Below, in pieces: positions 21,130-29,060 of a stretch of 64,000 nt of DNA (its first letter is position 1; each line of letters begins with the position of its first letter). The stretch comes from Flavobacteriales bacterium (GTDB lineage: Bacteria; Bacteroidota; Bacteroidia; Flavobacteriales; Flavobacteriaceae): positions 1 through 64,000 of the forward strand of contig QOQB01000004.1 in assembly GCA_003331305.1 (NCBI GenBank). The letters are read 5' to 3'. The notes under the pieces were generated by a model that was given only the letters and a program-made list of their open reading frames with translations, did not search any database and was not told the DNA's origin. The position numbers and the translations under genes were made by a program.

Positions 21130-21948
21130 ATGAATAAAATTCCAAAACTCGGACTACCAGTAATAGTCATTATTTTAGTAAGTATTATTTTTATTTCAAA
21201 ATCCTCTGTGAACATCGGTTCTGGTGAAGCAGGAGTATTATTTAAAACTTTCGGAGGGGGTGTTGTTACTGACAAAGCACCTTTAAGTGAAGGTTTCCAC
21301 ATCATTGCACCGTGGAATCGCGTGTATATTTACAATATTAAGCAACAGGAAGAATTTGAAAGTGGCATGCGTGTACTTTCTTCTAATGGCTTAGAAATAT
21401 CGTTGGATGTTTCGGTATTGTATCAGCCAAAAATTGACGAGTTGGGCTTGTTGCACAAAACCAAAGGCGAAAATTATCTGAATATTGTTATTGCGCCTGA
21501 AATTCGTGCCGTAGCACGTTCGGTAATTGGACGCTATACACCAGAGCAATTATACTCTACAAAGCGAGATGCCATTCAAAATGAAATTTTTGAAGAAACC
21601 AGACGAAAAGTAGAAGAACAGCACGTACAACTAAACTCGGTTTTGGTTCGTGATGTTACACTTCCTAATTCTATAAAAGAAGCCATTCAGCGTAAACTTA
21701 CTCAAGAACAAGAATCATTGGAATATGAATTCCGATTAGAAAAAGCACGTCAAGAAGCTGAGAAAGTACGTATTGATGCAGAAGGAAAGGCTATAGCAAA
21801 CCGTATTTTAGCTGCATCGCTTACACCAAATATTCTTAAAGAAAAAGGAATCGAAGCCACACTAAAACTTGCCGAATCACCAAATTCTAAAGTAGTGATT
21901 GTAGGTAATGGAAAAGATGGGTTACCACTAATTTTAGGAAATCAGTAA
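21130..21948 (+). CDS. Prohibitin/SPFH-domain membrane protein
   Basis: The 272-residue protein has one N-terminal membrane helix (about 9-26, LPVIVIILVSIIFIS), an SPFH/band-7 domain (about 30-195) and a charged coiled coil (about 170-220, LEKARQEAEKVRIDAEGKA), as in prohibitins. Such proteins form membrane ring scaffolds that influence proteases and membrane organisation. Ten bases after fabG, and last in the forward run before the his leader. Confidence 0.9.
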   Translation: MNKIPKLGLPVIVIILVSIIFISKSSVNIGSGEAGVLFKTFGGGVVTDKAPLSEGFHIIAPWNRVYIYNIKQQEEFESGMRVLSSNGLEISLDVSVLYQPKIDELGLLHKTKGENYLNIVIAPEIRAVARSVIGRYTPEQLYSTKRDAIQNEIFEETRRKVEEQHVQLNSVLVRDVTLPNSIKEAIQRKLTQEQESLEYEFRLEKARQEAEKVRIDAEGKAIANRILAASLTPNILKEKGIEATLKLAESPNSKVVIVGNGKDGLPLILGNQ

Positions 21949-21966
21949 GATTTGAAAAAAAAGTGT

Positions 21967-21974
21967 GATATTTG
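21967..21974 (+). promoter_or_regulatory. Probable promoter -7 element of the his operon
   Basis: GATATTTG is one base off TAnnTTTG and is 7 bases before the leader peptide ATG, the expected place for the his leader promoter. Confidence 0.4.
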
Positions 21975-21981
21975 CAATCTA

Positions 21982-22035
21982 ATGAAAACAACACATACAC
22001 ACCACCACGTAAAGTCATCGTTTCAAACGAACTAG
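21982..22035 (+). CDS. hisL: his operon leader peptide (17 aa)
   Basis: A 17-residue ORF too short for the track: MKTTHTHHHVKSSFQTN. Four of residues 5-9 are His (HTHHH). A stop (TAG) follows at 22033-22035. It lies between a promoter-like element and an intrinsic terminator upstream of hisG, the classic arrangement for ribosome-mediated attenuation: low charged tRNA-His stalls the ribosome on the His codons and frees the downstream RNA to form an antiterminator. Confidence 0.85.
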   Translation: MKTTHTHHHVKSSFQTN

Positions 22036-22070
22036 GTGAGGTGTATCCATAACCGACTAACCCGTTTGAA
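22022..22070 (+). promoter_or_regulatory. his antiterminator pairing
   Basis: TTCAAACG (22022-22029, end of the leader ORF) is exactly complementary to CGTTTGAA (22063-22070), which is the left arm of the terminator. Pairing of the two would prevent terminator formation. The segments share the same sequence family, as expected for a genuine attenuator. Confidence 0.7.
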
Positions 22071-22090
22071 GCAACTCAAACGGGTTTTTT
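22059..22090 (+). terminator. his attenuator terminator
   Basis: An 11-base stem AACCCGTTTGA / TCAAACGGGTT with loop AGCAAC is followed by a run of T. It lies 11 bases before the hisG ATG, so it can only work as a regulated terminator of the his operon. Confidence 0.85.
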
Positions 22091-22100
22091 TGTATCAATT

Positions 22101-22964
22101 ATGAAGAAAGAAAACATACGTATTGCCATTCAAAAGTCAGGAAGACTTAACGAAGATTCTTTGAAATTACTCAAGGATTGTGGCATTTCAATCAATAATG
22201 GAAAAGACCAACTCAAAACTACTGCGTCAAATTTCCCTATGGAAATTTACTATTTACGCAATGGAGACATTCCACAATACCTCCGTGATGGAGTAGTGGA
22301 TTTGGCTATTGTTGGAGAAAATCTATTAATTGAAAAAGGCGAGGACATTAGCATATTAGAAAATTTAGGCTTCTCAAAATGCCGTGTTTCTATTGCGGTT
22401 CCTAAAGAAGCTGCATACAACGGTATTGAAGACTTAACAGGAAAACGCATCGCTACCTCTTACCCAAAAACCGTACAAAAACACCTTTCACAATGGGGTA
22501 TCGAAGCTGATTTACACATCATCAACGGCTCGGTAGAAATTGCACCAAACATTGGACTTTCAGATGCTATCTGTGACATTGTTTCTAGCGGCTCTACGTT
22601 GTTTAAAAACAACCTTAAAGAGGTTGAAGTATTATTTAAATCAGAGGCTGTTTTGGTTAGTGCTGATGCCTTATCTGATGTAAAAAAAGATATACTGAAA
22701 ACCTTTTTGTTCCGTATTCGTGCGGTTTTGGCAGGTAAAAACTCACGTTATGTGATTATGAACGTTCCAAACGATGCCATCTCACATATTTCAAATATTC
22801 TACCTGTACTCAAAAGCCCAACGATAATGCCGTTAGTCGAAGAAGGATGGAGTTCGTTGCACTCGGTTGTAAATAAAAATACATTTTGGGAAATGGTAGA
22901 CGAGTTAAAAGCAGCAGGCGCTCGTGATATTTTAGTATGTCCAATCGAACGAATTATTCAGTAA
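22101..22964 (+). CDS. hisG: ATP phosphoribosyltransferase (long form)
   Basis: First, feedback-controlled step of histidine synthesis: ATP plus PRPP. The 287-residue protein is the long HisG with a C-terminal regulatory domain (about 210-287), so no HisZ partner is needed and none is present. Motifs RIAIQKSGRLNEDS (about 7), DLAIVGENLL and the PRPP loop DIVSSGSTLFKNNL (about 165). It is the first structural gene behind the attenuator. Its stop shares one base with the hisD start. Confidence 0.96.
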   Translation: MKKENIRIAIQKSGRLNEDSLKLLKDCGISINNGKDQLKTTASNFPMEIYYLRNGDIPQYLRDGVVDLAIVGENLLIEKGEDISILENLGFSKCRVSIAVPKEAAYNGIEDLTGKRIATSYPKTVQKHLSQWGIEADLHIINGSVEIAPNIGLSDAICDIVSSGSTLFKNNLKEVEVLFKSEAVLVSADALSDVKKDILKTFLFRIRAVLAGKNSRYVIMNVPNDAISHISNILPVLKSPTIMPLVEEGWSSLHSVVNKNTFWEMVDELKAAGARDILVCPIERIIQ

Positions 22965-24250
22965 TGCGTATTGTAAGCAATCCAGACCGGAATAATTGGG
23001 AAACGTTGACAAAACGCCCAACTGCAGATTTTGCTGCAGTTGAACCTATTGTAGACGAAGTTTTTGCTGCAGTTAAAGTAAATGGCGACACGGCTGCTCG
23101 TGTATACAGCCAAAAGTTTGATAAGGTTACTGTGGATAATTTTATTGTTTCTCAAGAAGAGCTGTCAAAAGCAAAAAGCGAATTGGCTCCTAAACTTGTT
23201 AGTGCTATTGATATAGCTTACGCTAATATTTATGCTTTTCATAAAGCACAACAAACTGATCCGATAGTAGTTGAAACTACGGCAGGCGTTTCGTGTTGGC
23301 AGGTCAAAAAACCTATCGAAAAAGTTGGGATTTATATTCCCGGTGGCACAGCGCCATTATTTTCAACTGTACTGATGCTTGCCATTCCAGCACAGATTGC
23401 TGGTTGCCAACAAATTGTGCTTTGCACGCCACCAAGCGCATCAGGTATTCCTGCGGCGATTCGTTATGCTGCATTTAAGTGTGGTGTTACCATAGTTGCC
23501 CAACTAGGCGGTATTCAAGCTATAGCTGCCATGACATTTGGAACAGCATCTATTCCAAAAGTGTATAAAATTTTTGGTCCTGGTAATCAATTTGTTACTG
23601 TAGCCAAGCAAAAAGCCACCCAGTTTCAAACGGCAATCGATATGCCCGCCGGACCTTCAGAATTGTTGGTTGTTGCAGATGCTTCAGCAAACCCTGCCTA
23701 TGTAGCAGCAGATTTGCTGTCACAAGCTGAACACGGCGTTGACAGTCAAGTCATTTTGGTTGCAATAGATAAATCATTAATCAAGTCTGTTCAAGAAGAG
23801 TTACTAAAACAATTACAACGCTTACCTCGAAAGGAAATTGCAGAAAAGGCACTTGACAACTCACTGACTGTTCTTTTTGATGAGGAATCAATAGCATTAG
23901 ATTTTATCAATACATACGGTCCAGAACACTATATTGTTTGTGCCGAAAACGAGGCTGTTTTTGTTGATGGTATTCTAAATGCAGGTTCGGTATTTATTGG
24001 AAATTACACGCCTGAAAGTGCGGGTGATTATGCTTCTGGTACCAACCACACACTTCCTACCAATGGCTATACCAAACAATATAGCGGCGTAAATCTCGAT
24101 GCATTTACAAAAGCGATTACCTATCAGCGGATCAGTGCAGATGGCATTCAAAAACTTGGACCGAGTATTGAAGCAATGGCAGAGGCGGAAGGGCTATTTG
24201 CACACAAAAACGCCGTAACCCTTCGTTTAAATGATTTAAACAATGGCTAA
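22964..24250 (+). CDS. hisD: Histidinol dehydrogenase
   Basis: Last two oxidations, histidinol to histidine, with NAD and zinc. The 428-residue protein contains KVGIYIPGGTAPL (about 105), KIFGPGNQFV, DMPAGPSELLVVAD (about 225), LSQAEHG (zinc) and TYGPEHYIV with NHTLPTNG. ATG 22964 (MRIVSNPDRNNW) is chosen; the track start 22937 lies inside hisG. It overlaps hisC by 8 bases. Confidence 0.96.
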   Translation: MRIVSNPDRNNWETLTKRPTADFAAVEPIVDEVFAAVKVNGDTAARVYSQKFDKVTVDNFIVSQEELSKAKSELAPKLVSAIDIAYANIYAFHKAQQTDPIVVETTAGVSCWQVKKPIEKVGIYIPGGTAPLFSTVLMLAIPAQIAGCQQIVLCTPPSASGIPAAIRYAAFKCGVTIVAQLGGIQAIAAMTFGTASIPKVYKIFGPGNQFVTVAKQKATQFQTAIDMPAGPSELLVVADASANPAYVAADLLSQAEHGVDSQVILVAIDKSLIKSVQEELLKQLQRLPRKEIAEKALDNSLTVLFDEESIALDFINTYGPEHYIVCAENEAVFVDGILNAGSVFIGNYTPESAGDYASGTNHTLPTNGYTKQYSGVNLDAFTKAITYQRISADGIQKLGPSIEAMAEAEGLFAHKNAVTLRLNDLNNG

Positions 24251-25295
24251 GGTTTTTAATTTAGCTGATTGGGCACGCCCCGAAATGTTGGCATTAAAGC
24301 CCTACACTTCGGCACGGGATACCTTTACCGCTGCGGAAGGGGAGTGGACGTTTTTAGACGCAAATGAAAACCCTAACGCCACAGAGGTAAATCGTTATCC
24401 AGATCCAAATCAAACGGAACTAAAAAAAGTGATTGCCAATCTCCGTGGATGTGATCAAGACCAGCTTTTAATCGGAAACGGCAGCGATGAAGTCTTAGAT
24501 CTTATTATCAGAGCATTCTGCACGCCCTACAAAGACGACATGCTTATTATGCCACCAACATATGGCATGTATGCCGTATTGGCTGATATCAATAGCATAG
24601 GCATGATTAAAGTGCCGCTTGATGCAACTTTCCAGCTTAGACCTAAAGAAATTCTTGCTGCGGTAACGCCAAATACAAAAGCTATATTCTTTTGCAGTCC
24701 TAACAACCCAAGTGGGAATGCTTTTAATTCTGATGATATTCAAATATTGTTGGAGGAGTTTGATGGAATTGTAGTAATAGACGAAGCATATATAGACTTC
24801 ACTGATTTTTCAAGTTGGTCAATAAAACTATCCAATTATCCCAACCTGATTGTAACGCAAACGCTTTCCAAAGCTTTTGGCTTAGCGGGTTTGCGTTTGG
24901 GAATTGCCATTGCCAGTTCTGAAATTATTGCTTTGTTAAAGCGCATCAAGCCGCCTTATAACATCAACAGTCTTAGCCAGGAAAATGCCATGGAAGTCCT
25001 TCGTGACACAAAAACAGTAAATACACAAATAGCAGAAAGCATTTCGGAACGAAAGCGATTAGCGCAAGAATTAAACACATTTTCATGGGTCGTCAAAACA
25101 TACCCATCAGACGCCAATTTTTTACTTGTCAAAGTTGATGATGCCGCAAAACGATATACAGAATTATTAGACCAACACATTGTTACACGGGATCGTTCTT
25201 CGCAAGAAAATTGCGAAAATTGTATCCGATTTAGCGTGGGGACACCACAAGAAAATGACAAACTTATTGCAGCATGTAAATCATTATCCGAATGA
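24243..25295 (+). CDS. hisC: Histidinol-phosphate aminotransferase
   Basis: PLP-dependent transamination of imidazole acetol phosphate, 350 residues. Class I/II aminotransferase marks: DANENP (about 38), [20 protein letters not shown] (about 142), DEAYIDF (about 180) and the PLP Lys in [16 protein letters not shown] (about 215). It overlaps hisD by 8 and hisB by 4 bases. Confidence 0.95.
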
Positions 25296-26416
25296 AAAAA
25301 GTATTGTTTATTGACAGAGACGGCACTTTGGCATTAGAGCCAACAGACTTCCAACTGGATGCCATGGATAAACTTGAATTCTATCCAGGTGTGTTTCAAT
25401 ATTTGGGACGTATTGCCAAAGAGATGGACTTCGAATTGGTCATGGTTACCAATCAAGATGGGCTGGGAACAGCCAGTTTCCCAGAAGAAACCTTTTGGCC
25501 TACACACGATTTTATGCTAACGTCCCTTAAAAACGAAGGCGTTGTTTTTGATCAAGTCTTTATAGACAAAAGCATGCCCGAGGACAATGCACCCACACGA
25601 AAGCCCAAAACAGGCATGTTGACGGCATATTTGGACACTACTGAATATGATTTGGCGAACTCTTTTGTTATTGGAGATAGAATGAGCGATATGGAATTGG
25701 CGCAAAATCTTGGTGCAAAAGGAATTTTGCTTCAATACGACACACGTATGGCTCAAGATATTTCTGCGGAACTACAAGCGGTTATTTCATTGCAAATCCA
25801 ATCCTGGGAAGGGGTTTATACCCTTTTAAAAGCAGGGGAGAGACGTGCTACACATGAACGCACTACGAAAGAAACAGATATTAAAATAGAACTCAATTTG
25901 GACGGTACTGGACAAAGCACTATCGATACAGGTATTGTCTTTTTTGATCATATGTTAGACCAGTTAGCACGCCACGGCGGTGTTGATATTACACTTACGA
26001 CCAAAGGCGATTTGGAAGTCGATGAGCACCACACTATTGAAGATACAGCCATTGCTTTAGGAGAGGCTTTTGGGCAAGCGATAGGAAATAAGCTTGGCAT
26101 AGAGCGCTATGGTTTTTGTTTGCCTATGGACGATTGTTTGGCGCAAGTAGCCATTGATTTTGGCGGACGTGCATGGCTCATGTGGGATGCGAAATTTAAA
26201 CGCGAAATGATTGGAAAAATGCCAACAGAAATGTTTTTCCACTTCTTTAAATCCTTTGCTGATGGTGCCAAAGCAAACCTTAATATTAAAGCGGAAGGCC
26301 ACAACGAACACCACAAAATTGAAGCAATTTTTAAGGCGTTTGCCAAGGCGATAAAAATGGCCATCAAACGCGATGCTGAAAAATTAGTATTGCCATCAAC
26401 TAAAGGTCAGCTATGA
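25292..26416 (+). CDS. hisB: Bifunctional histidinol-phosphatase / imidazoleglycerol-phosphate dehydratase
   Basis: A fusion of 374 residues. The N-terminal HAD phosphatase (about 1-165) has [12 protein letters not shown] with both catalytic Asp, TNQDG, and [10 protein letters not shown]. The C-terminal dehydratase (about 185-374) has [29 protein letters not shown] and [19 protein letters not shown], the metal-binding His sets. It carries two non-consecutive steps in one protein. Overlaps hisC and hisH by 4 bases each. Confidence 0.96.
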
Positions 26417-26991
26417 AAGTAGTTATTATCGATTACGGCGCAGGCAATATCCAGAGTATTCGTTTCGCATTGGAGCGTTTGGGTGCTACGGCTGTACTAT
26501 CCCATGATGCTGATGAAATTCGTCAGGCATCCCATATTATTTTTCCTGGGGTGGGCGAGGCGAGTTCAGCCATGAAAAAGTTGCAGGATACAGGGTTGGA
26601 CTCTGTTATTCCGACGCTCAAGCAACCTTTATTGGGTATATGCTTGGGTATGCAATTGATGTGTCACGCATCAGAAGAAGGGAACACAAAAGGCTTGGGG
26701 ATTTTTGATACTGAGGTCGTTCGCTTTAACACCAATTTAAACGTGCCACATATGGGATGGAATATGGTTAATGGCACAGGAAAGCTATTTTCGGATATTG
26801 CACAAAACAGCCATTTTTATTTAGTACATAGTTATTACGCTAAATGCTGCAATCACACAAATGCAACCTGTACGTATGACCTGCCGTTTAGTGCGGCATT
26901 GGCACGCGACAATTTTCACGGCACCCAATTTCACCCTGAAAAAAGTGGTGATGTGGGCGCACAACTATTACAAAATTTTTTAAACCTATGA
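26413..26991 (+). CDS. hisH: Imidazole glycerol phosphate synthase, glutamine amidotransferase subunit
   Basis: Supplies ammonia from glutamine to HisF. The 192-residue class I amidotransferase has DYGAGNIQS (about 7), the Cys nucleophile in [10 protein letters not shown] (about 78), and the His-Glu pair in [10 protein letters not shown] (about 177). Overlaps hisB and hisA by 4 bases each. Confidence 0.96.
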
Positions 26992-27716
26992 TTCTCGTAC
27001 CGGCAATAGACATCATCAACGGGCAATGTGTCCGCCTTACCAAAGGCGATTACGGCTCCAAAAAAGTATATAACGAATTTCCTGTGGAAGTGGCCAAAGC
27101 CTTTGAAGGGGCTGGACTAACACATGTGCATGTTGTTGACTTAGATGGTGCACGCGCCAAACATATTGTAAATGCAAAGGTGCTGGAACAAATTGCCACG
27201 CAAACGTCCTTACAAGTCGATTTTGGCGGTGGAATTAAAACGGAAACCGATTTACAAACGGCATTCGATTGTGGCGCTTCACAAGTTACACTGGGCAGCG
27301 TTGCGGTTATCGAACCTGAATTGGTACGTGAATGGCTAGAGAAATTTGGTGCGGAGCAACTTATTTTAGGGGCCGATGCCAAAAACAGACGGATTGCCAC
27401 ACACGGTTGGGAACAAGATTCGGGATTAGATGTTATAGACTTTATAATAGAATATGCGCAAAAAGGGTTCGAATATGTACTTTGCACAGACGTTGCCAAG
27501 GATGGTATGCTGGCAGGGCCATCGTTGGAGTTGTATTATGAAATCTTAGAACAGTTACCTGAACTTTCATTGATTGCTTCGGGTGGCGTAACCTCTATGG
27601 ACGATATTTATCAGTGTGCAGAATTGGGTTGTACCGCCGCCATTATTGGAAAGGCTATTTATGAGAACAAACTGTCTCTAAAGGAGTTGGAACGCTATCA
27701 AACGGAACAAATGTAA
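26988..27716 (+). CDS. hisA: ProFAR isomerase
   Basis: Isomerises phosphoribosyl-formimino-AICAR ribotide. TIM barrel of 242 residues with twin phosphate motifs: N-terminal [26 protein letters not shown] (about 80) and C-terminal [13 protein letters not shown] (about 166) with [11 protein letters not shown]. One base separates it from hisF. Confidence 0.95.
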
Positions 27717-27717
27717 T

Positions 27718-28470
27718 ATGCTTACCAAACGAATTATTCCGTGTTTAGATATCAAAGATGGCCGCACTGTGAAGGGCGTAAACTTTGTTTCGCTTCGTGA
27801 TGCGGGTGATCCCGTGGAATTGGCGCAACGCTATGCCGATGAAGGCGCGGACGAGCTGGTATTTTTAGATATCTCTGCTTCTGAAGAAAAGCGCAAGACC
27901 TTAGCGAAATTGGTACGTAACGTGGCATATGCGATTGATATTCCGTTTACCGTGGGTGGTGGTATAAGCTCGGTGGAAGATGTAGGCATTTTGTTGGAAA
28001 ACGGTGCGGATAAAGTATCCATTAATTCTGCTGCTGTTCGCCGACCAGAGCTTATAAGCGAACTGGCACAAAAATTTGGTACACAATGTATAGTCGTTGC
28101 AATTGATGCCAAACAAATTGAAAACGTGTGGGTGGTACATCTGGTAGGTGGAAAAGTGCCTACGGAGCGCAAACTTTTTGAGTGGGCAGCTGAAGCTGTA
28201 GAAAGAGGTGCAGGCGAACTCTTGTTTACCTCCATGGATCACGATGGTACGAAGCAAGGCTTTGCCAACAAAGCCCTAAAACAACTTAGCGAAACCGTTT
28301 CGGTTCCCGTAATCGCTTCAGGTGGTGCAGGTAATGTACAACATTTTATAGATACCTTTGCACTAGGAAACGCAGATGCTGCTTTGGCAGCCAGTGTCTT
28401 TCACTTTAAAGAAATAAGCATACCTGAATTAAAATCCGATCTACGAAACAATAAAATTCCCGTACGATGA
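27718..28470 (+). CDS. hisF: Imidazole glycerol phosphate synthase, cyclase subunit
   Basis: Cyclase partner of HisH, yielding imidazole glycerol phosphate and AICAR. TIM barrel of 250 residues with catalytic Asp in [16 protein letters not shown] (about 11), FTVGGGIS (about 79), and the second Asp in [11 protein letters not shown] (about 175), plus [11 protein letters not shown]. Overlaps hisIE by 4 bases. Confidence 0.96.
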
Positions 28471-29060
28471 CTATAGATTACAGTAAACACCCTGACGGAT
28501 TAGTCCCTGCCATAGTGCAAGATGCAAAGACAAGGACTGTCCTTATGCTCGGCTATATGAATGCCGATGCCGTTGCGAAAACACAAGAAACCAAACAGGT
28601 GACGTTTTTTAGCCGTAGCAAAAACCGCCTATGGACAAAAGGGGAGGAGAGCGGTCATTTTTTAACCTTGGTTGAAATGGCAGTAGATTGCGACAAAGAC
28701 ACCTTACTGATTCAAGCTACACCAAACGGCCCAACATGCCACAAAGGGGATGATACTTGTTGGGGAAAGGAAAACACAGCTAGCTACGGTTTTTTATCTG
28801 CCTTAGAAACCATTATTGCAGACCGTAAAAACAACCCTACAGACAAAAGCTATGTGGCAAGCCTATTTGCCAAAGGCATTAATAAAATTGCGCAAAAAGT
28901 AGGCGAAGAAGCCGTTGAAACCGTGATTGAAGCCAAAGACAATGACGAAGGCTTATTCCTAAACGAAAGCGCTGATTTACTCTTTCACTTGCTAATTTTA
29001 CTGCAAGCCAAAGGGTTTTCTTTACAAGATGTAGTAAATGTGTTGGAGAAAAGGCAATAG
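28467..29060 (+). CDS. hisIE: Bifunctional phosphoribosyl-AMP cyclohydrolase / phosphoribosyl-ATP pyrophosphatase
   Basis: Fusion of 197 residues doing steps 2 and 3. The HisI part (about 1-105) has metal-binding [11 protein letters not shown] and [12 protein letters not shown]; the HisE part (about 110-197) has [14 protein letters not shown]. It is the last his gene. The stop codon lies inside two AGGCAAT heptamers (29052-29065) related to the repeat at 58356, so the last residues are encoded by repeat sequence. Confidence 0.96.

Follow-up and report, generated by a model that had tools for sequence, protein, structure and literature searches.

Leader-peptide attenuators and the his leader locus

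The his attenuator of Escherichia coli and Salmonella (hisL; Rfam RF00514, His_leader) controls the his operon through a His-rich leader peptide and competing terminator and antiterminator folds. The locus described here, in a 64-kb stretch of Flavobacteriaceae DNA (the window, that is, all of the DNA analysed), has a His-rich leader of similar length and the same kind of competing folds, and very probably works as the enteric attenuator does. It differs in its simpler three-helix layout and in a TAnnTTTG promoter that almost touches the start codon. Its His codons number three to four in a cluster, against seven in a row in the enteric leader (PMC3896937). The RF00514 model (cut-off 49 bits) gave no hit with E ≤ 5 anywhere in the window, none of 20 relatives reached the gathering score and none of 41 Flavobacteriaceae genomes exceeded the cut-off; the E. 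coli positive control passes.

The sequence-only reading called this kind of control best known from Proteobacteria, which is fair, but attenuation has already been reported in Bacteroidota. The Rfam family Bacteroid-trp (RF01692; PMC2864571) is, like the his leader, an RNA with a leader peptide that belongs to an amino-acid operon of this phylum, but it senses Trp and has another sequence, and RF01692 does not match the his leader. In Flavobacterium psychrophilum, strong clues to leader-peptide attenuation upstream of amino-acid operons were described in 2021 (PMC9723704); these suggested attenuators come from the same bacterial family as the window, and the main text of that report gives neither operon names nor distribution. 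Translation of an attenuator's leader peptide in the absence of a Shine-Dalgarno sequence also has a precedent, the ilvBNC leader of Corynebacterium glutamicum, which has no ribosome binding site (as cited in PMC4046766); that case differs in phylum, operon and amino acid.

All window coordinates below refer to the forward strand. The first structural gene downstream of the leader is hisG (ATP phosphoribosyltransferase, 22101–22964), which scores above cut-off with the NCBIfam models TIGR00070 and TIGR03455. It is followed by the near-contiguous ORFs of hisD, hisC, hisB (bifunctional), hisH, hisA, hisF and hisIE (22937–29060), and NCBIfam assignments give a complete hisGDCBHAF-IE operon with the genes in that order. 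The gene upstream of the leader (21130–21948) is an SPFH/prohibitin-like ORF with a weak match to HflC.

The leader ORF and its promoter

The leader ORF hisL, defined from the sequence and by comparison with 80 related loci, occupies 21982–22035 and encodes MKTTHTHHHVKSSFQTN, followed by a stop. It has 17 codons, with ATG at 21982 and TAG at 22033–22035. Codon 5 (21994–21996) and codons 7, 8 and 9 (22000–22008) specify His, just as the sequence-only reading had it, and these control codons (21994–22008) are the predicted stall sites of a ribosome if charged tRNA-His is scarce. His thus takes four of the 17 codons of a short ORF ahead of an amino-acid operon, and this feature is conserved. The His triplet is CAC-CAC-CAC in the window and CAT-CAT-CAT in most relatives; the His codons vary synonymously, which indicates that selection acts on codon meaning. 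When both strands of the 64-kb window were scanned for a –7 box together with a short ORF that has a strong terminator after it, the his leader site was the only hit.

The putative promoter is a –7 box, GATATTTG (21967–21974), recognized from the sequence, by comparison and from the published consensus TAnnTTTG (PMC7366714; PMC9723704), with which it agrees in five of the six specified bases. The gap between box and leader ATG is 7 nt, and transcription would begin a few nucleotides before the ATG or at the ATG itself. Most Flavobacteriaceae loci have the box 7–8 nt ahead of the leader start. Of 78 non-redundant loci, 42 have a box with at least five of the six bases at a distance of 3–9 nt ahead of the leader start, the distribution peaking at 7–8 nt, while control bins of equal width farther upstream contain boxes in 10–25 loci. 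Longer gaps, of 10–20 nt or more, occur in some genera, Kordia for example, and in part of the class. By the published –7 spacing, a box only a few nucleotides before the start codon predicts a 5' UTR of a few nucleotides, and therefore nearly leaderless leader mRNAs. Leaderless mRNAs make up 5.5% in F. psychrophilum (PMC9723704), and 3.7% of 5' UTRs are shorter than 10 nt in Bacteroides thetaiotaomicron (PMC7366714). A –33 TTTG element was also sought at the his leader; its spacing was unsuitable and we do not claim one.

A single sequence gives moderate evidence for such a leader and conservation is decisive, since shuffling the intergenic region 3000 times with dinucleotides preserved produced an ORF of 10–30 codons with at least four His codons in 28 cases. 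This rate of about 1% lends something to a simpler explanation, in which the hairpin upstream of hisG would serve only as terminator of the preceding gene, hisG would have its own promoter and the His-rich ORF would be there by chance; the stem CCCGTTTGA/TCAAACGGG is, moreover, a common terminator sequence in Flavobacteriaceae. We regard this explanation as extremely improbable, as the 9 nt that separate the T-run from hisG contain nothing like a –7 box, the box that is present lies upstream of the leader, and the leader ORF and the antiterminator pairing are conserved class-wide.

The terminator and its competing folds

The intrinsic terminator (22059–22091), identified from sequence and folding, has arms AACCCGTTTGA (22059–22069) and TCAAACGGGTT (22076–22086) that form 11 pairs around a 6-nt loop, followed by a run of seven T residues (22085–22091). 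An 11-bp stem with a T-run ahead of hisG had been read from the sequence before; the distance to hisG, given then as 11 bases, is counted here as 9 nt from the last T at 22091 to the ATG at 22101. The ATG lies 14 nt past the end of the terminator hairpin, formed by segments 3 and 4.

Segment 3, CGTTTGAAG (22063–22071), is common to terminator and antiterminator by sequence and folding. Its alternative partner is segment 2a, TTTCAAACG (22021–22029), which forms the 5' side of the antiterminator within the last leader codons and pairs with 22063–22071. The exact complementarity of the leader tail TTCAAACG (22022–22029) to CGTTTGAA (22063–22070) in the left arm of the terminator, pointed out in the sequence-only reading, holds. 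The 2a:3 and terminator pairings are mutually exclusive, and 2a:3 shows compensating changes. The spacing also suits a ribosome switch: a ribosome held at His7–9 would leave 22021–22029 free, and one that had moved on to the stop codon (22033) would cover it.

The third helix, 1:2b (21995–22046), comes from fold prediction and pairs 21995–22000 and 22003–22006 with 22035–22038 and 22041–22046. It joins the His-codon segment to sequence past the leader stop and is the predicted protector or pause hairpin. Its predicted free energy in the window, –15.0 kcal/mol, was equalled in none of 300 shuffles, and similar helices are found in most of the non-redundant relatives listed, in many of them at p ≤ 0.05. 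Neither this helix nor the promoter box 7 nt ahead of the start codon was part of the sequence-only reading.

In fold predictions for a ribosome stalled on the His codons and a terminator whose right arm is not yet made, the 2a:3 hairpin forms with –12.5 kcal/mol, and with the ribosome at the stop codon the terminator alone forms. In the full-length leader the terminator beats the antiterminator even when the 5' part is masked as by a stalled ribosome. The antiterminator would therefore depend on kinetics, that is, on the order of folding, because the terminator is the more stable of the two in the full-length fold.

The whole leader stretch is more stable than its shuffles (z = –2.9). A structured leader RNA would also suit an attenuator that senses a metabolite, a tRNA or a protein (a riboswitch, a T-box or the site of an RNA-binding protein), with the peptide incidental. 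Such a sensor is hardly credible here, as no Rfam riboswitch or T-box matches the window or 20 relatives, and the His residues persist while their codons change synonymously, as one would look for in a sensor that is translated. One match to the Rfam model ncr1575 (a Bacillus sRNA) scored 32.2 against 60 bits and is a chance alignment to the terminator.

Proposed mechanism

We conclude, with a probability of about 0.94, that the element controls the his operon by ribosome-mediated transcription attenuation. This was also the interpretation offered from the sequence, and it gains support from the conserved leader ORF, the competing pairings and the lack of a –7-like box between terminator and hisG. 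The parts are in place, their geometry is that of an attenuator, and they are conserved with compensating sequence changes between families. Transcription would begin immediately ahead of hisL, whose translation a ribosome would start at or very near the 5' end of the RNA. If charged tRNA-His were scarce, this ribosome would stall at His5 or at His7–9 and cover the RNA to about 22020, which would keep the 1:2b helix open and leave segment 2a free. Segment 2a would then pair with segment 3, the terminator would not form and RNA polymerase would continue into hisGDCBHAF-IE. With ample histidine, the ribosome would proceed to the stop codon at 22033 and cover approximately 22015–22047; with 2a hidden, segment 3 would pair with segment 4 and transcription would end at the T-run. 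If the leader were not translated at all, the 1:2b helix would be expected to favour termination.

Conservation in Flavobacteriaceae

A protein search gave 80 hisG loci, mostly from marine Flavobacteriaceae. All 80 have a His-containing leader ORF, with 2–6 His codons, 14–23 residues in the scan and a position 54–208 nt before hisG. Typical leader peptides are MRNKNTHHHFYTCPQAR and MKKNTHIHHLFTLSQAS. A few leaders, read by hand, have only two His codons, a count that speaks against attenuation; these include L008, L015, L022, L042, L046 and L061.

The Flavobacteriaceae form of the 2a:3 pairing is TCAARCG/CGTTTGA. In 44 family leaders the core 2a:3 positions almost always form standard pairs, even though the leader side alternates between A and G. 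A covariance model of the his leader, built from 44 aligned leaders, detects the element in 82 of 101 Flavobacteriaceae genera (E ≤ 1e-9), normally once per genome; the position before hisG was checked for some of them. Reverse-strand hits of the model are due to the palindromic terminator and were set aside, as were two secondary hits in other genomes (L150 and L151), plain terminators with the same stem that lie away from his genes. In both, CCCGTTTGA/TCAAACGGG serves as an everyday terminator stem of the Flavobacteriaceae. Conservation of segment 3 alone therefore proves little, because the CCCGTTTGA stem is found in unrelated terminators of the family as well.

Conservation across the class Bacteroidia

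Stretches upstream of hisG were also read in genomes of six more families of the class, and almost all contain a His-rich ORF. A further class sample covered 18 families with 30 hisG loci, a few already part of the first set; a His leader is present in 27 of these 30, where shuffles lead one to expect 1.2. Of the three misses, two lie on short truncated contigs with coordinates out of register, and one is a clear absence. This locus (L177, family f75) is a registered hisG locus with no His-rich leader, and his control may differ there. Outside the class, similar ORFs occur in a few families (f15, f22 and f33) and in many families there are none.

The sequences of 2a and 3 differ altogether across families and their pairing is retained: outside Flavobacteriaceae we find GGTAAGC/GCTTACC, CAGGTAG/CTACCTG, GGCAGG/CTTGCC and GCGCCGG/CCGGCG. 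In a non-redundant set of 47 sequences, the leader's own 2a:3 pairing has a mean of –11.8 kcal/mol, compared with –6.9 kcal/mol for cross-family swaps. Counted from the first base of the last His doublet, segment 2a begins after approximately 19–28 nt, and in most leaders its end is close to the stop codon, so the spacing is what control by a stalled versus a terminating ribosome requires. The absence of the His-rich ORF or of the two competing pairings from close relatives would have spoken against the sequence-only reading; both are present in close and in distant relatives.

Of the 126 leaders inspected, 112 have an intrinsic terminator. In some families the His leader is retained but no intrinsic terminator can be recognised (L099, L107, L109 and L111 of family f3; L106, L110 and L121 of f8; L129, L131, L132 and L137 of f22), and these leaders may represent a Rho-dependent or translational version. 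For the window, control might likewise be mainly translational, with the same leader and folds but with the 3:4 hairpin blocking initiation at hisG and not transcription. The stem is close to hisG in the window, with the hairpin end 14 nt before the start codon, and the families without a T-run terminator would agree with such control. Yet a T-run follows the stem in the window and in most relatives, and in a number of relatives the stem is several tens of nucleotides from hisG, which makes mainly translational control very unlikely.

Other leaders in the same genome

Two further leaders were noted in this genome. One precedes trpE on the minus strand (L147, G000:C13), starts at position 286 of the locus and comprises a box, an ORF and a terminator: the peptide MKNIKTKSLWWNSL, with tandem Trp, begins 5 nt after the –7 box TATATTTG and is followed by a strong terminator. 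It scores 36.1 bits with Rfam Bacteroid-trp, below the cut-off of 49. The other, a second hit of the his-leader covariance model (L146:357–480, G000:C16), is a Tyr/Phe-rich leader, MKTNTYYTSFYYFYNGR, which starts 8 nt after the –7 box TACATTTG, has a strong terminator and precedes a prephenate dehydratase gene. No leader was found before thrA or ilvB/ilvD or upstream of leuA in the same genome.

Implications for Bacteroidota

Lopatovskaya et al. reportedly made a comparative study of attenuation in 2010. The kind of control described here is textbook, and perhaps the instance too was already anticipated, by that survey or in the F. psychrophilum report (PMC9723704). The present analysis contributes the distribution over the class, the compensating pairings and a layout that is nearly leaderless. 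His attenuation is not mainly proteobacterial, as almost every sampled Bacteroidia genome with hisG has the predicted attenuator ahead of that gene, and a covariance model is now given for an element that Rfam lacks.

Ribosome-mediated attenuation needs a ribosome close behind RNA polymerase. The conservation of the attenuator is therefore indirect evidence that Bacteroidota coordinate transcription and translation. Bacteroidota also mostly do without Shine-Dalgarno sites, and the nearly leaderless layout offers a test bed for translation initiation in their absence. We tentatively suggest, at a little under even odds, that leader-peptide attenuation of his is ancestral to Bacteroidia and shares one design with the Trp and Tyr/Phe leaders: a nearly leaderless RNA on which the ribosome begins right at the 5' end. 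If so, the sensing ribosome would load as the RNA emerges, with no Shine-Dalgarno site, and working coordination of transcription and translation would be required in Bacteroidota.
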